Below, in pieces: positions 1 to 13,105 of a stretch of DNA of 13,190 bases; the first letter of the stretch is position 1, and each line of letters opens with the position of its first letter. This DNA comes from Bacteroides sp. Lineage in GTDB: Bacteria; Bacteroidota; Bacteroidia; Bacteroidales; Bacteroidaceae. Made by a program: the position numbers and the translations under genes. The notes beneath the pieces were generated by a model, which was not told the origin of the DNA, did not search any database, and saw only the letters and a list, made by a program, of their open reading frames with translations. The stretch lies in the NCBI GenBank assembly GCA_021204375.1, contig JAJPZL010000136.1, positions 1 to 13,190 of the forward strand, in the 5' to 3' direction.

Positions 1-762
1 GGTATATACAACCACTACCAAAACCGCTCCTCCCACAAAATTTCCCAGTATAGCAGGAATTAAATTCTGCACGATAAATTCTCCTCAGCTGATCGGTGCT
101 CCGGTATAAATAGCCGCCGGGATAAAGAACATATTGGCAATTGAGTGTTCAAAACCCAGCGTAACAAAAAGCATCACCGGTATCCAGATGCCGATACACT
201 TTCCGGAGATATCTTTGGCAGCATACCCCATAAACATACCTAAGCAAACCAGCCAGTTCGCCCCTATCCCTTTTACAAAAACCTTTAGAAAATCCTGATT
301 AACTTTGGCACCCGAATAAGTATGCAGATAAGAGAGCCAGGGTTCGTGGCTCAGGATACCTGTATAAGCAGTCAGTAGCCAGGCAACAAACTGAGTACCT
401 ATAAAGTTAAAGAAGTAGGAGAGGAGCAGGAACCTGATAAACTTTGCAGCCCCTATCTCTTTTTTGCAGAGCGACATGGTAAAAGCAGCACAATAACTCG
501 TAAAAAGATCCGCTCCCGTAACAGATACCAGGATAAGACCTACAGGGAAGAGGGCACCTGCTATAAATTTTATAATTCCCGGATTAGCTGCACCCACACC
601 AGGCATTCCTCCTGCCACCATCACAGAGAGAAGCCCTCCCAGTACAATAAAAGCTCCTCCCAGCATAGCAATTACCATAAACTTAACAACCGGCAGGTTT
701 CCCTTATAAATACCCGATGAACGGAACGCTTCCGTCATTTCAACAGGAGAATAATATCCCAT
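1..762 (-). pseudogene. formate/nitrite transporter (FNT family), interrupted by in-frame TGA; 3' end beyond window
   Basis: Integral membrane channel of the FNT (FocA/NirC) family, which moves formate, nitrite or similar small anions across the inner membrane. The frame starts at ATG 762 (MGYYSPVEMTEAF). It carries FNT signature 1 (TGADLFTS, residues 82-89), signature 2 (GIGANWLVCL, 165-174) and the central-pore His region (GFEHSIAN, His206), with about six hydrophobic segments. After residue 225 (GAPIS) a TGA at 87-85 stops the frame. The same frame then stays open to the window edge and encodes the conserved FNT tail (NLIPAILGNFVGG, then a hydrophobic stretch). The stop falls where related proteins have Trp (S-W-G type sequence), so TGG to TGA is the likely change. 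No frameshift is seen. A protein ending here would lack the last transmembrane segment, so it is probably nonfunctional unless the stop is read through. The substrate cannot be told from sequence. Confidence 0.85.
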
Positions 763-798
763 AAAACTCTATTTTTAATTTCTTTAATTTTCAGCGTG

Positions 799-806
799 CA
801 AAGGTA
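799..806 (-). promoter_or_regulatory. candidate -7 box for the FNT transporter gene
   Basis: On the minus strand this reads TACCTTTG, an exact match to the Bacteroidota -7 consensus TAnnTTTG. It lies 36 bases upstream of the ATG at 762. No clear TTTG -33 element is found at the usual distance, so the assignment rests on the -7 box and position alone. Confidence 0.5.
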
Positions 807-1004
807 ATGAAACTTCTATTTTCACAGGATACCTCCCGCTATCTTTTTTCTATATCAGGTGATCTTTGCAGGATCACAGAAAGATAAAAATATTCTCCTT
901 TATCACTTTGGTTAGCGTCGGTCTTTCATTCAAATACTACTCAGTAGTTCTGCTGTCTCCGGTTTAGCTTCACTGGCCGTTGGTTCCTAACTGGTAGCTC
1001 TCAT

Positions 1005-1038
1005 AAAAAAATCCCGCAATCAAACAGAGATTGCAGGA
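1005..1038 (-). terminator. rho-independent terminator of putP
   Basis: On the minus strand the sequence TCCTGCAATC pairs with GATTGCGGGA (10 bp with one G-U) around a 7-base loop. A run of seven T follows. It sits about 40 bases after the TAA of putP, in the right orientation. Confidence 0.85.
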
Positions 1039-1076
1039 CTTTTATGACTCACATTTAACTAAATATCTTCTTTCTT

Positions 1077-2582
1077 TTACATATTCGAAGCCTTTTCAAA
1101 CTGATCCATCAATTTCTTATCCGGCTCTTTATCCAGTAAAGAGACCACTACGATACTAAGGATAGAGAAAATAAAGCAAGGTACGATCGAAGTAAATCCG
1201 GTAACACTATACATATCTAAACTCTCCCAAGCAATCACTCCTACAGCCCTCAGTACCATACCCGCCATCGCCCCTTTCAGGGTCAGCCGCTTCAAGATTA
1301 GCGATAACAAAATAATCGGAGCAAACGTAGCTCCAAAACCAGCCCAGGCATACGATACAAATCCCATTACCGAACTATCCGGGAACCAGGCCAGACCGAT
1401 ACCCAGTCCGGTAACCAACACAATGGAGATACGGCTGAGTAACATAGATCTTTTATTGGTCTGATTTTTGCTGAACATACAATAAATGTCATTCACCATA
1501 GCAGAACCTACTACCAACAGCTGTGAAGAGACTGTACTCATAATAGCGGCCAGAATCGCCGATAACAAAATACCCGCTATCCACGAAGAGAAAAGCATGG
1601 TGGAGAGCCGCATAAAAATACGCTCTGCCATTGCCTGGGTCTCATAGACCACTCCCTGTGAAGCCAGGTAAGCCCCACCGAATACACCGATAGCAATGGC
1701 AGCAGCCAGTGTCAGGAATACCCAGCTTACAGCGATAACCCGCGAACGCTTGATCTCATCAGCCGAACGGATAGCCATAAAACGTACCAGGATGTGAGGC
1801 ATCCCAAAATAGCCCAGGCCCCAGCCCAACCCTGAAATAATATCCCCAATCCCATTATCCGTCTGTGAGGAGAAGAGCGTCCCCAATACATACTCTCCTG
1901 AAACCAGTTCCCCACTCTCTGAGGCAGGAAGCCTTCCCAATACAATAATGGGTACGATCAGCAACGCAAAGAACATCAGGATACTCTGGAAAAAGTCTGT
2001 CCAGCATACCGCCTGAAATCCTCCCAGGAAAGTGTAGAAAAGAATAATAAAAGCACACAGGAACAGGGACGACCGGTAATTCATGCTGAAAAGTTCTTCA
2101 AACAATTTAGCCTCCGCACTAAAGCCCGAAGCCACATAAAGCAGGAAAAAGATAAGAATAACAGTCGAACAGATCAGCCGGATATAAGGAAATTGGGTAT
2201 GAAACCGGTTTTGAAGATACTCCGGTACCGTGATCGAATCCCCAAAGCTCGCTGTAAAATTGCGTAGCCGGTGTGCCACGATCCTCCAGTTGAGGTAAGT
2301 CCCGATAAAAAGTCCGATAGCGATCCAGGCAGCCCGGTAACCGAATAGGCAGGCAGCACCGGGCAGGCTCATAAACAGCCACGCACTCATATCCGATGCC
2401 TATGCACTCAATGCAGTAACCCAGGGATTGATCTGTCTTTCCCCCAGAAAATAGAAGGCCAGTCCGTTCTTCGAACAATTGTAGAAATAAATACCAATTA
2501 AGAAAACACCTATCGAATAGGCAAAAAAGGAGACATACAGTCCGGTGTTATTATCTATACCCAAAATCAGCTCTAATTACAT
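1077..2582 (-). pseudogene. putP: sodium/proline symporter (SSS family) with in-frame TAA and TAG
   Basis: Sodium:solute symporter of the PutP type, which imports proline with Na+ through a roughly 12-13 helix inner-membrane protein. The frame from ATG 2582 to TAA 1077 is 501 codons, matching full-length PutP. Family hallmarks include WVTALSA, ASDMSAWLFMSLPG, TVPEYLQNRF, FLGGFQAVCWTDFFQ and AIMSTVSSQLLV. Two stops interrupt it: TAA at codon 2 (2579-2577) and TAG at codon 61 (2402-2400), the latter between WVTALSA and ASDMSAW, inside a conserved motif where a Gln or Gly is usual. Restarting at ATG 2390 would lose the first two helices and Na+-site residues. The TAA matters only if 2582 is the real start; a TTG at codon 7 is an alternative. 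Odd residues also appear at positions usually conserved, such as LSLILKR where LSLYWKR is typical. It has its own promoter and terminator. Probably a recent pseudogene. Confidence 0.85.
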
Positions 2583-2603
2583 TAACCTAATATATACAAG
2601 CTG

Positions 2604-2611
2604 CAAATATA
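2604..2611 (-). promoter_or_regulatory. candidate -7 box for putP
   Basis: On the minus strand this reads TATATTTG, an exact TAnnTTTG match. It is only about 21 bases upstream of ATG 2582, so the leader would be short (around 15 bases). No good TTTG -33 box is visible upstream. Confidence 0.5.
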
Positions 2612-2793
2612 GGAATTTTAACTTTATTTCCCGAGGCGGTAAAGAATAAGTTCTTCCAGGTACAGGTTTTACAGAATGGGGCAGCTACAGAATATAACAG
2701 CACTGTCTTTCAACTTAACTATCCGGACACGCAGGGTGCAATGCATATTCTACCTTTCAAACACTGCATTATCCCGCTTTCCTATCCCATAAA

Positions 2794-3378
2794 TTACGGC
2801 CTCCACTCCAGGCTATCGGTCAACGGAGACTTTTTCCGCCACTCTTCCAGTTCCTGATAACTCTGTACACCTCCGGTAAAAATAGCGTGATAGATCTCTA
2901 TTCCCGGAATACTCACTCCCTGCGGTACCTCAAACTTTACCTGCAAAATTGTTTTCCGTAGCTCCGGTGTCAGCTTCTCCATAATAGCCTCCGTTACCCC
3001 TTCCACTACACCGTCATACTTCGATCTCAGGCGTATATGGATCATATCCAGTTTACAGGTTTTTCCCTCCTTATCTTCGTGTAAGGCATGTCACTCCACA
3101 CACTCCTCTTCCGTATCCCGCAGATCCATGTAGGTGAGCTCCCTCAGGAAAAGCCTTTCCGCCAGTTGCTGTATCACCCCGAAACTCTCAGTCAGCGAAA
3201 CCCGGTCCGTATAGATATGAATATCAATATCCCGGTTCTTCATCAGCAGCCCCGACCGGAGCGACCCCACTATATAAACGGTTGCCTCAATGCTTTCCCA
3301 TAACAGGATCACCCCGCTTTGTTCCACGATCTGCCACGTACGTTGCTGGTTCTCTTCTGCAATTTTTAAAATATCCAT
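2794..3378 (-). pseudogene. small nucleotidyltransferase-fold protein, interrupted by in-frame TGA
   Basis: Pol-beta-type nucleotidyltransferase of about 194 residues, a family found in Bacteroides relatives; target unknown. ATG 3378 starts MDILKIAEEN. The NTase signature is G38-S39 followed by D50-I-D52 (GSLRSG, then NRDIDIHIY), the metal- and nucleotide-binding motif. After residue 95 (EECVE) a TGA at 3093-3091 stops translation. The same frame then continues through HALHEDKEGKT and KLDMIHIRL to TAA 2794 with no shift. Relatives as I recall them read E-W-H-A here, so TGG to TGA is the likely change. A few codons later Cys replaces another usual Trp (KTCKLDM for a W-K-LDM type sequence). The first 95 residues alone contain the catalytic Asp pair but not the C-terminal half. 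It lies just downstream of the GGGtGRT terminator and shows no obvious promoter of its own. Probably decayed. Confidence 0.8.
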
Positions 3379-3400
3379 CCTTCTTTGGTTTTATAATTAT

Positions 3401-3441
3401 AAAAAACAAAAAACCACCGAACCCCTCAAAAGGTCCGGTGG
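3401..3441 (-). terminator. rho-independent terminator of the Fe-S scaffold / GGGtGRT operon
   Basis: On the minus strand CCACCGGACC pairs with GGTTCGGTGG (10 bp including one G-U) around an 8-base loop. A T-rich run (TTTTTTGTTTTTT) follows. It begins about 22 bases after the TAA of the GGGtGRT gene and ends before the nucleotidyltransferase start. Confidence 0.9.
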
Positions 3442-3463
3442 CCTGATATAATCGTAATTGAAA

Positions 3464-4465
3464 TTACTTGTTCGGTGCAGTAGCAATATCCACAGCCACC
3501 GCTACAGTAGCACCCACCATCGGGTTGTTACCCATACCCAGGAATCCCATCATTTCTACGTGAGCGGGAACAGAGGAAGAACCGGCAAACTGGGCATCCC
3601 CGTGCATACGTCCCATCGTATCGGTCATACCGTAAGAAGCAGGACCGGCAGCCATGTTATCCGGGTGCAGCGTACGTCCTGTACCACCACCGGAAGCTAC
3701 GGAGAAGTAGTTCTTACCATTCTCGATACACTCTTTTTTGTAAGTACCGGCAACCGGGTGCTGGAAACGCGTCGGGTTTGTAGAGTTACCTGTAATCGAT
3801 ACATCCACACCCTCTTTGCGCATAATTGCTACCCCTTCCCGTACATCATCGGCACCGTAGCATTTTACTTTGGCACGGTCTCCGTTAGAGTAAGCAATTT
3901 CACGAACCACTTTGAGTTCACCTGAGAAGTAATCAAACTCAGTCTGAACGTATGTAAATCCGTTAATACGTGAAATGATCTGAGCCGCGTCCTTACCCAA
4001 TCCGTTCAGGATACAACGAAGCGGTTCCTTACGTACCTTATCTGCTTTAGCAGCGATCTTGATAGCCCCTTCGGCGGCAGCAAAAGATTCATGTCCGGCC
4101 AGGAAAGCAAAACATTTAGTCTCTTCCCGAAGCAGGCGGGCAGCCAGGTTACCATGTCCGATACCCACCTTGCGGTCTTCGGCTACAGATCCCGGGATAC
4201 AGAAAGCCTGCAAACCGATACCAATCGCTTCGGCAGCATCAGCCGCATTTTTGCAACCTTTTTTAACAGCGATAGCAGCACCCGCTACATACGCCCATTT
4301 CGCATTTTCAAAACAGATAGGCTGAGTCTCTTCACAAATTTTATAAGGATCCACACTAATACTATCGCAAAGCGCTTTTGCCTCTTCGAGGTCTTTGATA
4401 CCGTTAGCGTTCAACGCTGCGTTAACTTTGTCGATACGACGATCGTAACTTTCAAGTAATGCCAT
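3464..4465 (-). CDS. GGGtGRT family protein
   Basis: A 333-residue protein of the GGGtGRT family, named for its conserved glycine-rich motif, which is intact here (GGGTGRT, about residues 259-265). It is followed by the conserved tail with HPDNMAAGPASYGMTDTMG and NNPMVGATVAVAVD. The family's biochemical role is not established as far as I know. It has no signal peptide or membrane span, so it should be cytoplasmic; several Cys residues are scattered in the first 110 positions. The ATG at 4465 is preceded by an unusually strong Shine-Dalgarno. The gene starts 20 bases after the stop of the upstream NifU/IscU-like scaffold and ends at a strong terminator, so the two form an operon. This pairing recurs in Bacteroidota and Clostridia and suggests a role tied to iron-sulfur chemistry, which is inference. 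The frame is intact. Confidence 0.93.
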   Translation of the reverse strand: MALLESYDRRIDKVNAALNANGIKDLEEAKALCDSISVDPYKICEETQPICFENAKWAYVAGAAIAVKKGCKNAADAAEAIGIGLQAFCIPGSVAEDRKVGIGHGNLAARLLREETKCFAFLAGHESFAAAEGAIKIAAKADKVRKEPLRCILNGLGKDAAQIISRINGFTYVQTEFDYFSGELKVVREIAYSNGDRAKVKCYGADDVREGVAIMRKEGVDVSITGNSTNPTRFQHPVAGTYKKECIENGKNYFSVASGGGTGRTLHPDNMAAGPASYGMTDTMGRMHGDAQFAGSSSVPAHVEMMGFLGMGNNPMVGATVAVAVDIATAPNK

Positions 4466-4474
4466 ATTGTATTT

Positions 4475-4481
4475 CCTCCTT
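4475..4481 (-). promoter_or_regulatory. strong Shine-Dalgarno of the GGGtGRT gene
   Basis: The minus strand reads AAGGAGG, 9 bases before ATG 4465. Strong SD sites are uncommon in Bacteroidota and the other genes here lack one, so this fixes the start and suggests high or coupled translation after the scaffold gene. Confidence 0.75.
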
Positions 4482-4485
4482 ATTT

Positions 4486-5187
4486 TTATTCGTGACGTGG
4501 GTCGATATATTTTACAACTCCGGCTTCTTCAGTAAAACGTCCGTAAGTACCGGTAACTTTTTTCAGCGCTTCGTTCGCATCCGTACTTTTTTTGATCTCA
4601 TCCATAAATTTACCCATGTGGATGAACTCATAGCCGCAGATCTCATCGTTGGCATCCAGGGCGATGCGGCTGATGTAACCTTCTGCCATCTCTAAGTAAC
4701 GTGGACCTTTGGCAAGCGTACCATACAGCGTACCTACCTGGCTGCGGAGACCTTTACCCAGGTCTTCCAGGCCTGCACCGATAGGCAGACCATCTTCAGA
4801 GAAAGCACTCTGTGTACGTCCGTAAACGATCTGGAGGAATAATTCACGCATAGCTGTGTTGATCGCATCACAAACCAGGTCGGTATTCAGCGCTTCCAGA
4901 ACCGTTTTTCCCGGAAGGATCTCAGAAGCCATAGCCGCTGAGTGAGTCATACCCGAACATCCGATCGTTTCGATCAAAGCTTCCTGAATGATGCCCTCTT
5001 TCACATTCAATGTAAGTTTACAGGCACCCTGCTGGGGAGCACACCAGCCTACACCGTGTGTAAGGCCTGAAATATCAACAATTTCTTTAGATTTTACCCA
5101 TTTGCCTTCCTGGGGTATGGGAGCCGGTCCATGGTTCGGACCCTTCTTCACAACACACATGTGTTCCACTTCGTGTGAATACATCAT
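4486..5187 (-). CDS. NifU/IscU-like iron-sulfur cluster assembly scaffold protein
   Basis: A 233-residue protein related to the NifU N-terminal/IscU scaffold, on which [Fe-S] clusters are built before transfer to target proteins. Candidate ligand cysteines are visible in GWCAPQQGACKLTL, TIGCSGMTHSAAM and LVCDAIN; the G-C-S-G segment matches the IscU-type fold. It is longer than IscU (about 128 residues) and carries an extra C-terminal part ending KYIDPRHE. The frame is open upstream to a TTG at 5274. I chose the tandem ATG at 5187/5184 (M-M-YSHEVEHMC) because the conserved family sequence starts there and the upstream residues look non-homologous; the second ATG is equally possible. It is the first gene of an operon with the GGGtGRT gene, 20 bases downstream. 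The leader from the predicted promoter is about 90 bases. Cytoplasmic, frame intact. Confidence 0.85.
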   Translation of the reverse strand: MMYSHEVEHMCVVKKGPNHGPAPIPQEGKWVKSKEIVDISGLTHGVGWCAPQQGACKLTLNVKEGIIQEALIETIGCSGMTHSAAMASEILPGKTVLEALNTDLVCDAINTAMRELFLQIVYGRTQSAFSEDGLPIGAGLEDLGKGLRSQVGTLYGTLAKGPRYLEMAEGYISRIALDANDEICGYEFIHMGKFMDEIKKSTDANEALKKVTGTYGRFTEEAGVVKYIDPRHE

Positions 5188-5282
5188 AATTAGCTCTTTT
5201 TTAGTAATAAAATTTTGTTCGTAACCACTGGTTGGGAAACCCATCGTACACTTACGGAAGAAAGATTTGCCCAAATCGAACG

Positions 5283-5312
5283 CAAAGTTAGGAGTTTTAT
5301 CGGTTTATGCAA
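5283..5312 (-). promoter_or_regulatory. candidate promoter of the scaffold / GGGtGRT operon
   Basis: The minus strand has TAACTTTG at 5290-5283, an exact TAnnTTTG -7 match. A partial -33 element (TTG at 5312-5310) lies 19 bases further upstream, the expected spacing. The predicted start is near 5276, leaving about 90 bases of untranslated leader. Confidence 0.6.
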
Positions 5313-5500
5313 CCTGCCTGTTATTACTTTTTGATGAAAAAAACGATTTACCGGAAAGGGAGTATTATATTGCAATCCCGGGTTTGCAAACACCGGTAAA
5401 AGTGAGTCAGGGAGAAGAAGATAGAGGGAGTAGGTAAAGGTATCCGGAAGGCAGTCAGGTGATGGTCAAAACCAGAGGAAATAAAACGCTCACCCTTTCC

Positions 5501-5528
5501 GGGAGGTTAACCGGCCGGCTAACTTCCC
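5501..5528. repeat. 28-bp imperfect palindrome centred on CCGGCCGG
   Basis: GGGAGGTTAACCGG is followed directly by CCGGCTAACTTCCC. The halves pair over 14 positions with one mismatch and one G-T. It lies in noncoding DNA. It could be an operator for a dimeric regulator, part of an RNA stem, or a leftover of a repeat element; a single copy is seen in this window. Confidence 0.7.
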
Positions 5529-5559
5529 CTCTCTTCCCGGTTAAAAAATACCCTTATAC

Positions 5560-5631
5560 TCTTTTCGGGAAAGATCTATCCGGTCTTCCGGAGCCTCTGT
5601 GTGGTTGTTTTAAGCCTGCACTTTCAGGCTT
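5560..5631. other. cluster of three short hairpins
   Basis: Three perfect hairpins follow each other: 5560-5574 (TCTTT / AAAGA, 5-base loop), 5579-5592 (TCCGG / CCGGA, 4-base loop) and 5612-5631 (AAGCCTG / CAGGCTT, 6-base loop). With the palindrome at 5501-5528 they make a dense structured stretch. The last hairpin is followed on the plus strand only by TTATTA, so it is a poor terminator. No known RNA family was recognised. Confidence 0.4.
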
Positions 5632-5636
5632 TATTA

Positions 5637-5644
5637 CAAATATA
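5637..5644 (-). promoter_or_regulatory. orphan minus-strand -7 box
   Basis: The minus strand reads TATATTTG, an exact TAnnTTTG match, with no coding gene directly downstream. Transcription from it would run through the hairpin cluster and palindrome toward the scaffold gene. No good -33 box was seen, so a chance match is possible. Confidence 0.3.
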
Positions 5645-5725
5645 GCAAAAAAACGATCGATATTCCTCTCCATACAAAAAAAATGAGGAATAAAAACGGA
5701 ATTCACCTAGAAAACAACCGTACAT

Positions 5726-5767
5726 AAAAAAGAGAAAGGAGCTGTAAAACACAGGCTCCTCTCTCTT
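5726..5767 (-). terminator. rho-independent terminator of rplS
   Basis: On the minus strand AAGAGAGAGGAG, a bulged C and CTGT pair with ACAG, CTCC and TTTCTCTT around the loop GTTTT. Six T follow. This long stem starts about 20 bases after the rplS stop. Confidence 0.92.
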
Positions 5768-5788
5768 ATTTCGTTGGTTCGCTTCCGG

Positions 5789-6142
5789 TTAAGCGTTCAC
5801 TCTCTTTTCTTTGATTCTTGCCTTTTTACCGGTCAGTGCGCGCAGGTAGTACAATTTAGCACGACGAACTTTACCCACCTTGTTCACCTGGATGCTGTCG
5901 ATAAACGGAGAATCCATCGGGAAAATTCTTTCTACACCAATCGTACCTGACATTTTACGTACGGTAAAACGTTTTTTGTTACCGTGGCCTGCAATCTTGA
6001 TCACCACACCGCGGTATAACTGGATACGCTCTTTGTTACCCTCTTTGATGCGGTACGCTACCGTTACGGTATCACCGGCTTTAAATTTTGGATGCTCTTT
6101 TCCGCTTGCAAATGCTTCTTCGGCAATTTTAATAAAATCCAT
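5789..6142 (-). CDS. rplS: 50S ribosomal protein L19
   Basis: Ribosomal protein L19, 117 residues, a large-subunit protein at the 30S-50S interface (bridge region). The full family pattern is present: [16 protein letters not shown], the [10 protein letters not shown] core strand, [25 protein letters not shown] and [14 protein letters not shown], with a basic tail typical of Bacteroidales. ATG 6142 matches the usual N-terminus ([11 protein letters not shown]). The gene is transcribed alone here, from the divergent region 6143-6323 to a strong terminator at 5767-5726. A TTTG at minus-strand 6185-6182 could be its -33 box, but the expected -7 site is weak. The gene is intact and essential, in contrast with the interrupted genes to its left. 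Confidence 0.98.
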
Positions 6143-6237
6143 TGTTTATATTTTAATTATTATTGTTACAACGCAACATATCAAATCTCTCTACTTTTGA
6201 CAGCGATTGCGCGAAAGCGGTGCAAAGAAACGAAATA

Positions 6238-6280
6238 TTTGTCAGATAGCCAAATGTATAAAAATAATTTTGTAGTTTTG
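6238..6280 (+). promoter_or_regulatory. candidate promoter of the plus-strand five-gene operon
   Basis: TTTG at 6238-6241 could be the -33 box. Two adjacent -7 matches follow: TAATTTTG (6265-6272) and TAGTTTTG (6273-6280). Spacing from TTTG to the first is 23 bases, slightly longer than the usual 19-21. The first gene starts at 6324, giving a leader of about 40 bases. Confidence 0.6.
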
Positions 6281-6323
6281 TGCTCCCGGGCACCACCCTG
6301 GCTCCACCCTAAAACACATTGGT

Positions 6324-7094
6324 ATGAACCTGGAAAAGAGTTTCAGATCCCTTATTCTGCTCCTTACGGCAGGATTTTTCTTTTTCTCCTGCCGGCCTTC
6401 CTATACACTGGTATCGGTAGAGGGAGGACGCATAGAAATAGATTCCGTTCTGGATGCCCTGCCCCATGCAGAGGCGGCAGCTATCGTTTCCCTCTATAAA
6501 GCCCGCATGGATAGCATCATGCTCCCTGTAGTGGGTACCTCCGCCTTAAATATGACAACCGGTAAACCCGAAGGGCTTCTCTCCAACCTCATCTCTGATG
6601 TATTGCTGGAGAGTGCACAACTCCGCACCGGCCGCCCCGCCGATCTTGCCATTATGAATATGGGCGGTATCCGCAGCGACCTGCCCCAGGGAGAAATTAC
6701 CTTTGGAAAAATATACGAGATCCTTCCCTTTGAGAATGCCCTTTGCGTAGTCGAACTATCCGGGGATCATCTTCTTTCTCTTTTTGGAGAGATTGCCCAA
6801 AGCGGGGGACAAGGCGTAGCCGGGGTAAAGCTGGAGATCTCCGGCGACGGCAAACTCCTGGCTGCCCGGGTAGCCGGAGCACCTGTTGACCCGCAGAAGA
6901 ACTACCGTATTGCCACCATTGATTACCTGGCCGAAGGAAACGACGGCTTCCCTTCACTGGCTCAGCATACCCGGCAGGAGTGTCCCGAAAATGCCACTTT
7001 GCGGGAACTCTTCCTCAATTACGTACAACGGCAAAGTGCCGCCGGCCAGGTAATAACAGCTACCCTGGATGGCCGTATTATGGTAAAACCTTAA
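6324..7094 (+). CDS. lipoprotein with 5'-nucleotidase C-terminal (substrate-binding) domain
   Basis: A 256-residue exported protein equal to the C-terminal domain of UshA-type 5'-nucleotidases, which binds the nucleotide base and sugar. The N-terminus is a lipoprotein signal: Lys/Arg, a hydrophobic run, then FFSC with Cys23 as probable lipidation site. The residues after Cys (RPS) are not acidic, so it lacks the usual Bacteroidota surface-export signal and probably faces the periplasm. Domain motifs visible are NMGGIRSDLPQGEITFG, EILPFENALCVVELSG and the late GNDGF segment that stacks the base. It has no metallophosphoesterase half; that is supplied by the next gene, 12 bases downstream. The two probably act as a split 5'-nucleotidase that releases phosphate and nucleosides. 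First gene of the operon. The frame is intact. Confidence 0.88.
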   Translation: MNLEKSFRSLILLLTAGFFFFSCRPSYTLVSVEGGRIEIDSVLDALPHAEAAAIVSLYKARMDSIMLPVVGTSALNMTTGKPEGLLSNLISDVLLESAQLRTGRPADLAIMNMGGIRSDLPQGEITFGKIYEILPFENALCVVELSGDHLLSLFGEIAQSGGQGVAGVKLEISGDGKLLAARVAGAPVDPQKNYRIATIDYLAEGNDGFPSLAQHTRQECPENATLRELFLNYVQRQSAAGQVITATLDGRIMVKP

Positions 7095-7106
7095 CAACCC
7101 ACACGT

Positions 7107-7961
7107 ATGAAAATAAATAGATATACCTTATTTACATCCCTGTTACTCACCCTCCTTCCGGCAGTATTACCGGCACAGGAACTTATTTCCCTGCGTATTC
7201 TCCATACCAACGATACCCACAACCGCATTGAGCCCATCCCTGCCGGCGGACGCAACGCAGGCAAAGCCGGCTTTGTGCGCCGGGCTGCCTCTATTGCCGT
7301 AGAACGCGAAGAACACCACGGCCTCCTTCTCTTTGACAGCGGAGACTTTTCACAGGGAACCCCTTACTACAACCTTTTCAAAGGCGAAGTAGAAGTACAA
7401 CTCATGAACGTGATGGGATACGATGCCTGTGCCGTCGGTAACCACAAGTTCGATTTTGGCCTGGAGAATATGGCCCGCCTGTTCCGGATGGCCGGCTTTC
7501 CCATCCTGTGTGCCAATTACGACTTTACCGGCACCGTCGTAGAAGGGCTGACCCAACCCTACGAGATCTTTGAACGCCAGGGAGTACGTATCGGTGTACT
7601 AGGCATTTCTCCCCGGATGGAAGGATTAGTAGCCGCCTCCAACTTTGAAGGTGTCGGTTACCTCGACCCGGTAGAAAAAGCCAACGAAATAGCCGCCCTT
7701 TTAAAAAACCAAAATGATTGCGATGTTGTTATCTGTTTATCACACTTAGGCATGTTACCCTCGGCCTTTAATCCCGAATGCGATGAGTACTTAGTACGCC
7801 ATACCCGCAACATCGATCTCATCCTCGGAGGCCATTCCCACACCTATATGGAAGGGCCCGAACCCTATCTCAATGCCAACGGCCGGACGATCTATATCAG
7901 CCAGATAGGAAAAGAGGGGGTATATGTAGGAACTGTAGATTTGAAACTGGAAAAGAGATGA
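7107..7961 (+). CDS. exported metallophosphoesterase, N-terminal half of a 5'-nucleotidase
   Basis: A 284-residue calcineurin-like phosphoesterase with a signal peptide (basic start, hydrophobic run, cleavage near LPAQ). It should hydrolyse nucleotide phosphoesters in the periplasm using two metal ions. Metal-site motifs: HTNDTH (residues 33-38), DSGDF, GNH (111-113) and GGHSH (241-245). The canonical G-N-H-E motif reads GNHKFDFG here: Lys114 replaces a nearly invariant Glu, a GAG to AAG type change. Asn112 and His113 remain, so activity may be reduced rather than lost. It ends at TGA 7959-7961, overlapping the next gene's start (ATGA); a TAA follows directly in the same frame. It pairs with the preceding gene, which holds the substrate-binding domain. 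Confidence 0.9.
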   Translation: MKINRYTLFTSLLLTLLPAVLPAQELISLRILHTNDTHNRIEPIPAGGRNAGKAGFVRRAASIAVEREEHHGLLLFDSGDFSQGTPYYNLFKGEVEVQLMNVMGYDACAVGNHKFDFGLENMARLFRMAGFPILCANYDFTGTVVEGLTQPYEIFERQGVRIGVLGISPRMEGLVAASNFEGVGYLDPVEKANEIAALLKNQNDCDVVICLSHLGMLPSAFNPECDEYLVRHTRNIDLILGGHSHTYMEGPEPYLNANGRTIYISQIGKEGVYVGTVDLKLEKR

Positions 7962-10933
7962 TAAAAAAGCTACTGCTTGCAGGAGGAGTCTTACTCGCCT
8001 CCGCTCTCCCGGTAAAGGCTCAGGTAGAACCTTTGCTTGCGTATAAAGTACAACACGACCCCGACTGTATCCGGTGGGTCGATTCCATAGCCTCCGACCT
8101 GACACTCCGCCAAAAGGTGGGACAACTCTTAGTCTACACTATTGCACCCGATCAATCCGGAGGGAACATATCCCACCTGCGCGATATCGTGAAGAATTAC
8201 CACGTAGGAGGACTCCTCTTCTCCGGCGGACAGATCCAGGACCAGGTAGCCCTGACCAACCTGGTCCAGGGTGAAGCTAGCGTTCCCCTGATGATCACCT
8301 TCGACGGCGAGTGGGGCCTCTCCATGCGGCTGAAGAATACACCCGTTTTTCCCCGCAACGCCATTCTGGGAACCATCAGCGACGACCGCATCCTCTACCG
8401 ATACGGGGCCGAGGTAGCCCGCCAGCTCCGGGAGATCGGGGTACACGTGAATTTCGCCCCCGTAGCCGATGTCAATATCAACCCTAAAAATCCCGTCATC
8501 GGTACCCGGGCCTTCGGTGCCGACCCCTACTTAGTAGCCGATAAAGTGATCGCATATTCTGCCGGATTGGAGAGTGGAGGCGTACTTTCCGTCTCCAAAC
8601 ACTTTCCCGGACACGGCGATACCGATGTAGACTCTCATAAAGCACTCCCGGTACTCACCTTCGACCGGGTACGCCTGGATAGTGTTGAACTCTACCCCTT
8701 TGCAAAAGCCATTCAGGCAGGCGTAGGAGGAATTATGGTCGGCCACCTACAGGTAAATGCCTTCGACCCCGGCCAGCGTTTGCCCTCCTCACTCTCCCGC
8801 AATATCGTACAACACCTCCTGCAAGAGGAGATGGGATTCCGGGGCCTCATCTTTACCGACGCCCTCTCCATGAAAGGCGTAGGAACCCCCGGCAGCCTCG
8901 GGACCGCTGCCCTGAAAGCAGGCAACGATGTGCTGCTGATCCCCCGTCCCCTCAAGACCGAGATGGAGAACATCCTGGAGGCCATCCGGCGGGGCGAGAT
9001 CAGCGAAGAGGAGATCGACCGCAAATGCCGCAAAGTACTCCTCTATAAATATGCCTTAGGCGTGCAGAACCAGCAACCCATCCGGCTCTCCGGGCTCAAC
9101 GAACGCTTAAACCAGCCTCACGTCGGAGAACTCCTGCACGATATACGCCGGGCGGCTATCACGGTCGTTGCCAATGAGAACAACCTGTTACCCCTCTATC
9201 CCGAAGATACCAATATGGGAATGGTAATGATCGGCGACGGTGCCTCCACCTTTACCTCCGAACTCAACAAATACGCCTATACGGCCCAGTATAAAGTGAC
9301 TCCCGGTACTACTGAGTCGCAGCGCAATACTCTTATTGCCGATCTTAAAAAGCACTCCCGGATCCTTGTCTGTGTAGCCCAGGACAATATCCAGGCCTAT
9401 GCCTCCTTCCTCTCCCGGCTCTCCAAAGATGACCATGTAATATACGTCTTCTTTGCCTCCCATAAAACCATGGAAGGAGTTGAATCCACCCTGCGCAACG
9501 CCTCCTCCATTATCCTGGCCCATACTAACCAGCCTGACGTACAAAAGCAGGTAGCAGCCGTGCTCTTCGGCCTGGCCGAAGCCTCCGGACGCCTGGCCAT
9601 GAATCTGGGACAACTCTACCCCGCCGGAAGCGGAGTCACCCTTACCCCCGATATGAAACCCACCTATATACCCGAAGATTTCGGTATGCGCTCCGAGGTC
9701 TTAGAAAAGATCGATAAAATAGCCCGGGATGCTATTGCTGCCAAAGCTATACCGGGTTGCCAGATCGTGATCCTCAAAGAGGGCAAACCCGTCTACGACA
9801 AAGCCTTTGGCAAACATACCTACGAAGGCGACCGCCCCGTACAACCCGACGATGTTTACGATATTGCCTCCCTGACCAAAACTTCGGCTACCCTGCTGGC
9901 TGTGATGAAGCTATACGACCAGGGCAAACTCAATATCACAGACCTCGCCTCCCAGCATCTTTTTTTTTTAAAGGGCACCGATAAAAAAGCCATTACCATT
10001 AAAGAGCTCCTGCTCCACCAATCCGGCCTGCCCGCCGTACTTCCCTTCTGGCGTGAACTGGCAGATCCCGAGACCCTTAAAGGAAGCATGTACTCCAAAA
10101 CACGGGATGCCAACCATACCATCCGGGTCGATGTCAATAGCTACATCAACACTACCTTTGACTACAAAAAGAACCTCGTCTCCCGGGGAGGCACCCACCG
10201 GTATGCCCTCCACATGGGAGAAAACATGTGGATAGACACCACCTTCCGCGACAGTATACAGCAACAAATAGCCTCCGCTACCCTCAGACCCCGTAAATAT
10301 CTATACAGCTGTGTCGGGTTTATCCTGTTGCAACACATTGTCGAACAGATCACCGGTATGCCGCTCGATACCTACCTGGCCCGGGAGTTCTATACCCCCA
10401 TGAAGCTTATCCATACCGGCTACCTGCCCCTCCGTTTCCTGGAGAAAGAGAGCGTAGTCCCTACCGTAAAGATGGACTACCTGCGCCGGGAGATGCTCCA
10501 GGGATATGTACACGACGAAGCAGCCGCCTGCCAGGGAGGCATATCCGGCAATGCCGGGCTCTTCTCCAATGCCCGGGAGATCGCACAGATCCACCAGATG
10601 ATCCTCAACGGAGGCGAGCTCAACGGCAAACGTTACCTCAGCCAATCCACCTGCGAACTCTTCCTGACTACCAAATCGGGTATCAGCCAGCGCGTACTGG
10701 GGTATAACAAACCCGGTCCCAATGGGGGAGGAGCCTGTTCACCCTCCACCCCCCGTTCTGCCTACGGGCACACCGGCTTTACCGGTACCTGTGCCTGGGT
10801 AGATCCCGATAACCAGTTAGTCTATGTCTTTCTCAGCAACTGCGTCTATCCCGATCCCTGGAACAACAAACTCTCTGCCCTGGATGTCAGGCGGAACATC
10901 CAGGAGACCATCTACCAATCCCTGATCCGCTAA
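7958..10933 (+). CDS. exported GH3 (NagZ-like) and beta-lactamase-type serine hydrolase fusion
   Basis: A 991-residue exported two-enzyme protein. A signal peptide (MIKKLLLAGGVLLAS, cleavage near VKAQ) precedes a glycoside hydrolase family 3 domain with the NagZ-type KHFPGHGDTDVDSH loop (residues 214-226) and the probable nucleophile Asp301 in TDALSMKG. A GH3 C-terminal-like region spans roughly 390-560. From about 580 to the end is a class C beta-lactamase/PBP-like domain with SxxK (Ser638-Lys641, SLTK), a YSC motif (783-785) in the YxN position and HTG (938-940) replacing KTG. Such fusions are known in Bacteroidota. NagZ homology suggests cleavage of N-acetylglucosaminyl bonds in peptidoglycan fragments or glycans; the second half may be a peptidase or esterase. 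The start overlaps the previous gene by 4 bases. A nine-T run lies at 9960-9968. The frame is intact. Confidence 0.92.
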   Translation: MIKKLLLAGGVLLASALPVKAQVEPLLAYKVQHDPDCIRWVDSIASDLTLRQKVGQLLVYTIAPDQSGGNISHLRDIVKNYHVGGLLFSGGQIQDQVALTNLVQGEASVPLMITFDGEWGLSMRLKNTPVFPRNAILGTISDDRILYRYGAEVARQLREIGVHVNFAPVADVNINPKNPVIGTRAFGADPYLVADKVIAYSAGLESGGVLSVSKHFPGHGDTDVDSHKALPVLTFDRVRLDSVELYPFAKAIQAGVGGIMVGHLQVNAFDPGQRLPSSLSRNIVQHLLQEEMGFRGLIFTDALSMKGVGTPGSLGTAALKAGNDVLLIPRPLKTEMENILEAIRRGEISEEEIDRKCRKVLLYKYALGVQNQQPIRLSGLNERLNQPHVGELLHDIRRAAITVVANENNLLPLYPEDTNMGMVMIGDGASTFTSELNKYAYTAQYKVTPGTTESQRNTLIADLKKHSRILVCVAQDNIQAYASFLSRLSKDDHVIYVFFASHKTMEGVESTLRNASSIILAHTNQPDVQKQVAAVLFGLAEASGRLAMNLGQLYPAGSGVTLTPDMKPTYIPEDFGMRSEVLEKIDKIARDAIAAKAIPGCQIVILKEGKPVYDKAFGKHTYEGDRPVQPDDVYDIASLTKTSATLLAVMKLYDQGKLNITDLASQHLFFLKGTDKKAITIKELLLHQSGLPAVLPFWRELADPETLKGSMYSKTRDANHTIRVDVNSYINTTFDYKKNLVSRGGTHRYALHMGENMWIDTTFRDSIQQQIASATLRPRKYLYSCVGFILLQHIVEQITGMPLDTYLAREFYTPMKLIHTGYLPLRFLEKESVVPTVKMDYLRREMLQGYVHDEAAACQGGISGNAGLFSNAREIAQIHQMILNGGELNGKRYLSQSTCELFLTTKSGISQRVLGYNKPGPNGGGACSPSTPRSAYGHTGFTGTCAWVDPDNQLVYVFLSNCVYPDPWNNKLSALDVRRNIQETIYQSLIR

Positions 10934-10948
10934 TATACTCACATTACA

Positions 10949-12259
10949 ATGAAAAACACCCTCGCTCTCTTCCGTCAGCCTTTCCTGCTGGTGGTATGGA
11001 TCGCCTGCTCGTTGCCCCTGTGGGGGCAGGAGCCCGCCTCTTTGCCGGAGATCCTGCAAAAGATGCTCTTAGTCAAAGAGGTCACTTCGCTAGAATCCGA
11101 CAGGTTTTCCCGGAAATACCTGCTTCGTATCGAACAGCCCTTAGATCACGCCGACCCCGCAGGCCCCCGCTTTACCCAACGCGTCGTCCTGTGCCACACC
11201 GGCTTCGATAAACCGGTAGTACTCGTTACCGAAGGCTACTCCGGAGAGTATGCCCTGCGTGCCTCCTACAGAGACGAACTCTCCCGCCTGCTCGATGCCA
11301 ATATCCTCTTTGCCGAACACCGCTACTTTGGGGAATCCCGCCCCGATACCCTCCTCTGGGAGTACCTTACCGCAGAAAATGCCGCTTACGATATACACCG
11401 CATCACCCACCTGTTTAAACCCTTTTATCCCGGAAAGTGGATCGCCACCGGTATCAGCAAAGGAGGCCAGACCGCCCTGATCTACCGCACCTTTTTTCCG
11501 GACGATGTCGCTGTAACCCTGCCCTACGTGGCCCCTCTTTGCCGGGCGGTAGAAGACGAGCGGCACGAAAAGTTCCTGCGTCACGTAGGTACCCGGAGAG
11601 AACGCAGGCGCATTGAGCACTATCAAAAAGAGGTCTTACGCCGCAGGGAGGAGATCCAACCTCTCTTTGATGCCTGGTGCAACCAGCGCGGATATACCTT
11701 CCGTATCCCCCTGCAAGAGGTATACGACTATTGCCTGCTCGAATACCCGTTCGCCTTCTGGCAATGGGGCAAAAACGTAGCAGATATTCCCCCTCCCGGC
11801 AGTGAAGTCGGCCGACTCTTTGCCCACCTGATGGATGTCAGCGAGCCCTCCTATTTTGCCCGCGAACAAGCCCATCTCCCTTTCTTTGTACAAGCTGCCC
11901 GGGAGCTGGGCTACTACGGATACGATACCCATCCCTTCCGGCCATACCTGACAATAGAGAGTGCCCACGGATACCTGCACCGGGTGATGCTCCCCCGGGA
12001 GCTGGAAAACCTCCCTTTTGACGATACCCTCTACCACCAGGTAACAGAGTTCCTGGATAAGAACGACCTGCCCATCCTCTTTATTTACGGGCAGCACGAC
12101 CCCTGGACAGCCGCAGGAGTAACCGGGTTAAAAGGCAAAAAACAGATAAAAGTCTATACAGAACCGGGAGGCAGCCACCTCGCCCGTATCTCCTCCTTTC
12201 CGGAGCAGACCCGGGTAGAGATCCTAAAGATCCTGGAAAAATGGCTGGAAGAAGAATGA
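10949..12259 (+). CDS. S37 (PS-10) type serine peptidase, exported
   Basis: A 436-residue alpha/beta-hydrolase peptidase resembling family S37, tripeptidyl-aminopeptidases that trim peptides from the N-terminus. The N-terminal hydrophobic segment (residues 8-24, cleavage near LWGQ) indicates export to the periplasm. A complete triad can be proposed: Ser170 in GISKGGQ, Asp384 in YGQHDPW and His410 in GGSHLA. Other family features are the early RIEQPLDHADP segment, VTEGYSG and FAEHRYFGESRP. It starts 15 bases after the GH3 fusion gene and is followed 24 bases later by cobQ, all on one strand without an obvious terminator, so it is probably co-transcribed. It ends in TGA 12257-12259; beyond this the frame is open for eight codons into the cobQ ATG. 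Intact. Confidence 0.87.
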   Translation: MKNTLALFRQPFLLVVWIACSLPLWGQEPASLPEILQKMLLVKEVTSLESDRFSRKYLLRIEQPLDHADPAGPRFTQRVVLCHTGFDKPVVLVTEGYSGEYALRASYRDELSRLLDANILFAEHRYFGESRPDTLLWEYLTAENAAYDIHRITHLFKPFYPGKWIATGISKGGQTALIYRTFFPDDVAVTLPYVAPLCRAVEDERHEKFLRHVGTRRERRRIEHYQKEVLRRREEIQPLFDAWCNQRGYTFRIPLQEVYDYCLLEYPFAFWQWGKNVADIPPPGSEVGRLFAHLMDVSEPSYFAREQAHLPFFVQAARELGYYGYDTHPFRPYLTIESAHGYLHRVMLPRELENLPFDDTLYHQVTEFLDKNDLPILFIYGQHDPWTAAGVTGLKGKKQIKVYTEPGGSHLARISSFPEQTRVEILKILEKWLEEE

Positions 12260-12283
12260 ATATGCAGTAATTTATCAAACAAG

Positions 12284-13105
12284 ATGAGAACACTCATGAT
12301 CCAGGGCACCGCCAGTAACAGCGGCAAGAGCCTGATAGTAGCCGCCCTTTGCCGGATGCTCACCCGCAAAGGCTATCGGGTAGCCCCTTTTAAAGCCCAC
12401 AACCTATCCGATAAAAGCTATACCACCGCACAGGGAAAAATAATCGGTTCTGCACAATATATCCAGGCCTACGGCTGCGGGGCCACCGTCAGTGAACTCC
12501 TCAATCCCGTACTTATCTCTCTCGCCGGCAGCCAAACCCGCTTTATCATAAACGGGGAAGTAGTACATACCGGCCCTTTCTCCGATTACTCCCGCCTGGT
12601 TCCCCGCATGAAGGAGGCCATTACCGGTTCTCTCCATACCCTGCAGGAGTAGTACGACTGGATCATTATCGAAGGAGCCGGCTCTCCGGCCGAGATCAAC
12701 CGCCGGGAAGAAGGCCTAGCCAATCACTTTACCGCCTCCGTAGCAGATGCTCCCGTCCTGTTGGTAAGCAGTATGGAGCTGGGCGGAGCCTTTGCAGCCG
12801 TAGCCGGCACCTTAGCACTCCTTTCCCCGGCAGCACGCGCCTCTGTCAAAGGTTTTCTATTCAATAAATACGACGGACCCCTCTCTCTACTGGAGCCCGG
12901 TACCCGCATCCTCGAAGAGCGGTATGGCATCCCCTTCCTGGGAGCCATCCCTTACCTGGAAGGACTCCGGATCCCGGACGAAGATAACGGTACCTATACG
13001 CCCGCCTGCCTGCCGGAAGCCGTTCAGTTCTCTTTGCCGGAGATAGAGAACTCTTTAGATAGGATGGTCTGTGTGGTAGAAAAGCTTTTTACAGGTTGGG
13101 TGTAA
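12284..13105 (+). pseudogene. cobQ: cobyric acid synthase, ATP-binding domain only, interrupted by in-frame TAG
   Basis: CobQ adds amide groups to adenosylcobyrinic acid a,c-diamide in cobalamin synthesis, using ATP and glutamine. The frame starts MRTLMIQGT with a P-loop (GTASNSGKS, residues 8-16) and the APFKAHN segment. A TAG at 12650-12652 (codon 123) stops it. The same frame then continues with YDWIIIEGAGSPAEIN, ADAPVLLV, VKGFLFNKYDG and IPFLGAIPYLEGL, to TAA 13103-13105. Family members usually have Glu, Arg or Gln just before Y-D, so CAG to TAG is plausible. Total length is 274 codons against about 490 for complete CobQ: the glutaminase domain and its Cys are absent, and nothing like it follows before the window ends. 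Conserved spots are altered, with SMELGGAFA where DxDRGGVFA is typical and FKAHN for FKAQN. Either a decayed gene or a divergent stand-alone domain that then gained a stop. Confidence 0.75.

Follow-up and report, generated by a model that had tools for sequence, protein, structure and literature searches.

Why should several genes in one short stretch of DNA be interrupted by stop codons and by nothing else? The question is raised by contig JAJPZL010000136.1 of a Bacteroides sp. draft genome (GCA_021204375.1), analysed here over its full 13,190 nucleotides and called the window below. It is an entire contig (C492) of the source genome, G000, which comprises 3,300,552 bases in 506 contigs and is 79.26% complete. 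Stops lie in frames related to a formate/nitrite transporter (FNT), the Na+/solute symporter gene putP, a nucleotidyltransferase and cobQ, and a sequence-only reading had ascribed all five of them to G:C to A:T transitions in Gln or Trp codons. Comparison with the closest genome available, G101 (~91% DNA identity), indicates that the four interrupted genes are very probably true pseudogenes of fairly recent origin, in a lineage undergoing genome decay. The best reading is ongoing pseudogenization of the type described for Sodalis under the usual bacterial transition bias—an ordinary mechanism and a process already known.

In three blocks, all lying between window positions 1030 and 13123, G101 contig C386 aligns at 89–95% DNA identity; the FNT end has no match on that contig. 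All five stop codons are present, and four of them interrupt a gene. The FNT pseudogene (1–762, minus strand; a 225-residue piece matching PF01226, E 2.3e-63) contains an in-frame TGA at 87–85, beyond which the frame runs on for 28 codons and off the contig, whose end limits its length. No other FNT homologue was among the fetched loci; going by a family motif, we take the replaced residue to be Trp. The other three have sense codons in G101 that bear out the proposed ancestry. The putP-like symporter pseudogene (1077–2564, minus strand; a 437-residue piece scoring 477.1 bits against TIGR02121, below the cut-off of 515.5) has TAG at 2402–2400 where G101 encodes Gln. In the nucleotidyltransferase pseudogene (2794–3378, minus strand; weak NTP_transf_2 and Polbeta matches), TGA at 3093–3091 stands against Trp in an open G101 frame of 211 codons. 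The cobQ pseudogene (12284–13105, plus strand; an NCBIfam cobyric acid synthase match) carries TAG at 12650–12652, again opposite Gln.

The fifth stop, TAA at 2579–2577 (minus strand), was considered as a second putP lesion and rejected, as three homologues (L031, L032 and L033) have their Met start about seven codons downstream of it. Set by these homologues, the N-terminus of putP would lie near 2564, at a TTG; in G101 the same stretch has indels and an in-frame stop nearby. The suggestion that every interrupted frame keeps about family length or family-like sequence on both sides of its stop also stands in part. The cobQ frame matches its family before the stop (model positions 2–121) and after it (124–237), but the model has 480 positions, the frame then ends, and the C-terminal half is absent. 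No further cobQ-like frame lies downstream on the G101 contig, so that cobQ appears to have been shortened already, perhaps before the two species split.

No frameshift occurs in any of the four genes in the window, as had been noted. In G101, two of these genes have lesions of their own: putP has lost one base of a T run close to its start, and cobQ differs by a two-base indel. From these differing lesions, both genes appear to have been inactivated independently in the two genomes. The S37-type peptidase gene between them (10949–12259, plus strand; PF05576) is open in G000 and broken only in G101, where a five-base indel splits it over two frames.

Separately, putP has an uneven distribution. 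It reaches ~26% identity at best in the 24 same-genus genomes searched, G101 apart, and is 65–70% identical to genes of a Tannerella metagenome-assembled genome (MAG; Md513_bin134), a Parabacteroides MAG and Bacteroidia bacterium MS495-74. A lateral transfer before decay is possible.

Does interruption by nonsense alone extend beyond the window? We aligned 158 kb of G000 with G101, made up of 40 G000 contigs or pieces (20 of them picked for ABC-transporter matches) plus the window. Within this sample, 129 reading frames were compared, each of at least 120 codons and chosen for little overlap, and a frame was called broken if it held a stop or frameshift and less than 90% of it was open. A first count gave 33 broken frames in G000 and 17 in G101; once frames at least 90% open had been removed, 28 were left in G000. 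Frames broken in both genomes are under-counted by the alignment method. Two window genes are not counted among the 28, since for cobQ G101 offers no more than a fragment as reference frame, and putP has an interruption close to its start in G000 and G101 alike.

By type of lesion, the broken frames of G000 (28 of 129, a count with no healthy-pair control for comparison) comprise 7 with stops only, 8 with frameshifts only and 13 with both. The corresponding figures for G101 are 12 of 129, with 4, 7 and 1. Leaving aside five G000 frames that lack family support, 23 remain broken (4 by stops, 7 by frameshifts, 12 by both). Of the 28, 21 thus carry a frameshift, and neither nonsense-only interruption nor the argument drawn from it, that genes free of indels are not ordinary pseudogenes, holds outside the window. 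By chance the window holds four nonsense lesions without a frameshift; a 13-kb stretch can appear nonsense-only though its genome is not.

Lesions in G000 are concentrated in particular genes. Sixty-nine lesions leave 89 of 117 frames untouched, compared with 67.7 in simulation (0 of 5,000 simulations as extreme). The ratio of nonsynonymous to synonymous counts is 0.24 in lesion-free frames, 0.33 in the first-count G000-broken set (33 frames) and 0.52 in the G101-broken set (17 frames). Of the first 33 G000 candidates, 30 were scanned and 25 match a family, among them transporters, a sensor kinase, polysaccharide enzymes and an AddA/AddB-like pair; Era-like and GrpE frames, also among these candidates, are at least 0.91 open despite paired indels. 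Fifteen of 18 lesion-free frames scanned match a family at the thresholds applied, including IF-2, two UvrA, PBP2, SufB, Der, DnaJ and Asd, and the class-I tRNA synthetase matches found have no stops. Housekeeping genes are kept. The same holds within the window, where the earlier remark that genes likely to be essential or useful lack stops is borne out by an intact rplS (ribosomal protein L19; 5789–6142, minus strand; TIGR01024, 138.9 bits), a NifU-like Fe–S scaffold-type gene (4486–5187, minus strand; weak PF01592 and TIGR03419 matches) whose frame is kept and 0.99 open against G101, and hydrolase frames that are likewise kept.

A single domain family gives a comparison with other members of the genus. 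Among matches to the ABC ATPase domain (PF00005), 7 of 49 in G000 and 3 of 57 in G101 (one of the three scoring under the family cut-off) include a stop, compared with 0 of 123 among the matches listed in three same-genus genomes, one of which is fragmented too (390 contigs; Fisher p 1.1e-4 for G000, 0.03 for G101). Four ABC loci in each of G000 and G101 were seen as split matches, as frameshifts would give. The pseudogene load is unusual compared with the three relatives.

We next consider what kind of mutation made the stops. In the 28 broken frames of G000 there are 32 stops, from which we dropped two upstream of the nucleotidyltransferase start and two needing more than one base change. 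Among the 28 single-step stops that remain, 22 go back to a C to T or G to A change; the other six are transversions (four G to T, one C to A, one A to T). The share of G:C to A:T transitions is 16 of 20 in family-supported frames only and 24 of 30 when putP and cobQ of the window are added. The transition origin proposed for the stops is thus a genuine pattern across the sample without being exclusive. Fourfold-site differences would predict 37% in lesion-free genes (31% in broken genes), from which the observed share departs with p 1e-5, although 37% is a poor null, synonymous differences mixing both lineages and being shaped by selection and saturation. Polarization with 800 kb of an outgroup, G104, was too thin to add much: a strict filter left 6 genes and a looser one 12 of the 129 frames, in which GC-to-AT transitions make up 16 of 35 G000-derived and 13 of 28 G101-derived changes, the lineages being alike.

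A spectrum of this kind could come from cytosine deamination in the source DNA, or from errors of assembly. Besides the 22 of 28 stops, such damage would account for an excess of nonsynonymous G:C to A:T transitions over the reverse (447 versus 324 in G000, over the 79 frames without a candidate lesion). However, transversions lean AT-ward at the same ratio (129 versus 98, Fisher p 0.76), while deamination would raise transitions only. Nor would damage spare 89 of 117 frames, produce frameshifts as often as stops, or leave different lesions in the same genes of a second, related assembly. Damage or assembly error is unlikely, and we give it little weight; as far as the assemblies can tell, the interruptions are real.

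Could the stops instead be read through or reassigned, so that the proteins are still made? The frames do stay in family register beyond them. Against this, TAG, TAA and TGA all occur, in place of Gln, Trp, Arg, Glu, Gly, Tyr and Lys, and all three also end unbroken genes (TAA 59, TGA 15, TAG 7). Frameshifts accompany or replace stops in 21 of the 28 broken frames, and no suppressor was found among the two tRNAs detected in 406 kb scanned, a search of low power. Reassignment would show as one stop standing for one amino acid in frames otherwise open, and this pattern is not what we see. Tolerated readthrough is accordingly scarcely credible here.

Recent decay under transition-biased mutation, the remaining option of the sequence-only reading, is supported by the 22 transition stops and by widespread breakage in the G000 and G101 samples. 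Many genes for transport, catabolism and accessory functions are no longer under selection, as breakage in two related genomes shows, and nonsense and frameshift mutations become fixed in them. The stops look alike because point mutations are mostly G:C to A:T transitions, for which Gln and Trp codons are targets. Host restriction may be what relaxed selection. Less effective repair, whether of mismatches, of uracil or through AddAB, may amplify both transitions and homopolymer slippage.

Known systems offer comparisons. Sodalis glossinidius and SOPE, insect symbionts that became host-restricted recently, are described in PMC3499248 as having many genes inactivated and not yet deleted, by small indels and nonsense mutations that arose independently in related lineages. 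G000 genes are likewise broken by small indels and nonsense, independently of the related G101, whereas G000 and G101 belong to another phylum and have a higher share of nonsense. By analogy with these symbionts, host restriction of the lineage would fit. C/G to T/A transitions prevail in clonal bacteria once selection is relaxed, according to PMC2936535, and the transition bias of the stops is to be expected for that reason. The likeness to those clonal bacteria is that G:C to A:T transitions dominate G000 stops; the difference is that direction here is taken from one related genome, with only 12 of 129 frames polarized by an outgroup. A literature search by title and the start of the abstract found no account of a decaying Bacteroides lineage, though one may exist.

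Several observations weigh against decay of this ordinary kind. To reach the observed 79% of transitions, the recent spectrum would have to be some six times richer in transitions than the synonymous differences (such a spectrum would give 78%). Nonsense accounts for 30 of 67 lesions (45%), above the 23–26% that we recomputed for Sodalis and SOPE from Table 2 of PMC3499248 as a share of internal insertions, internal deletions and nonsense (nonsense is given there as 16–19% of all disrupting mutations). The GC content of the G000 and G101 samples is equal (45.8%), while amino-acid changes lean AT-ward. Lesions in G101 give no clustering signal (14 lesions; 1,545 of 5,000 simulations as extreme). 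Some of the broken genes, those for an FKBP-type isomerase and for a tRNA-editing domain, are not clearly dispensable. G000 and G101 are both drafts in many pieces, in which errors at single sites are possible.

A stronger claim would make loss of repair the main driver: without mismatch and uracil repair the lineage would become a mutator, in which transition-type nonsense and homopolymer slippage outpace selection. Several repair genes are interrupted or were not found. In G101, mutS has an in-frame TAA where another genome, G076, has Gln, and mutL has TAG where G076 also has Gln; the mutL site, however, lies in a variable linker and is Leu in G104. In G000 (79% complete) a MutS2-like gene is present, but searches for mutS and mutL found neither; the chance of missing both at this completeness is ~4%, if independent. 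The only UDG-superfamily match in G000 (L148, within 2900–3950, contig C99) has both a frameshift and a TAG that interrupt it, whereas the corresponding G101 gene (L273, 388–1080, 90% DNA identity) is open; a search for relatives of a longer UDG-family protein from G104 gave none in G000 or G101. A helicase–nuclease pair that we name AddA/AddB-like by inference (L137, ~1160–7220, G000 contig C33) is broken by stops and frameshifts, its G101 frames being open.

The lesions themselves speak partly for the same idea. Transitions are prominent among the stops, and the first-count candidates of G000 (33 frames) contain 30 one-base frameshift indels, of which 14 fall in runs of at least five, where 2.8% of bases lie. 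In mismatch-repair-deficient Escherichia coli under mutation accumulation, the indel rate climbs steeply with homopolymer length, as stated in PMC8510543. One-base indels in G000 similarly favour long runs, unlike that system in that the repair status of G000 is judged by absence from an incomplete draft. The homopolymer indels fit weak mismatch repair; any pseudogene set, or sequencing error, would give some. Mismatch-repair loss raises A:T to G:C transitions too, and these, though also expected, cannot appear among nonsense mutations. Stops in repair genes may, moreover, follow from decay instead of causing it.

On balance we lean against repair loss as the main driver, while keeping it in consideration, and give it a modest probability of acting as an amplifier of decay. 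The fullest version pictures a Bacteroides-like clade in mid-decay, in which two species lose the same genes independently and pseudogenization, rich in nonsense mutations and in transitions, is driven by the failure of mismatch repair, of uracil removal and of recombinational repair of the AddAB type; this composite we offer tentatively, as a rather doubtful proposition. If loss of repair did have this role, the clade could test whether mutators drive early pseudogenization. Genomes in mid-decay with a relative at ~91% DNA identity are useful because their lesions can be compared with those of the relative, and partly ordered.

The other genes of the window also bear on its source. A fusion of GH3 and β-lactamase-fold domains (7958–10933, plus strand, frame kept) encodes a protein 94% identical in G101 and at most 56% identical in the other same-genus genomes (119 genomes with a GH3 match). 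Its named homologues are mostly Bacteroides (53–56%), from which G000 is probably Bacteroides-like. A search of G000 with one degenerate DNA pattern gave no match. The S37 peptidase has a match in 50 of 158 genomes searched and exceeds 58% identity in G101 only. Copies with in-frame stops occur in the same-genus genomes G067, G072 and G129 (one, two and two in the main match), and other members of the genus may thus be decaying as well.

A 333-residue gene with no NCBIfam name (3464–4465, minus strand) keeps its frame in both G000 and G101. Between 6324 and 7961 on the plus strand, a gene for a 5′-nucleotidase C-terminal domain (6324–7094, PF02872) is followed by a separate metallophosphoesterase gene (7107–7961, PF00149), as though a single enzyme had been divided between two genes; both frames are kept. 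Beyond the window, a 74-base element recurs at 96% identity on one G000 contig (L137, 7290–7363) and two other G101 contigs (L169, 4338–4411; L156, 457–528), and looks like an interspersed repeat.

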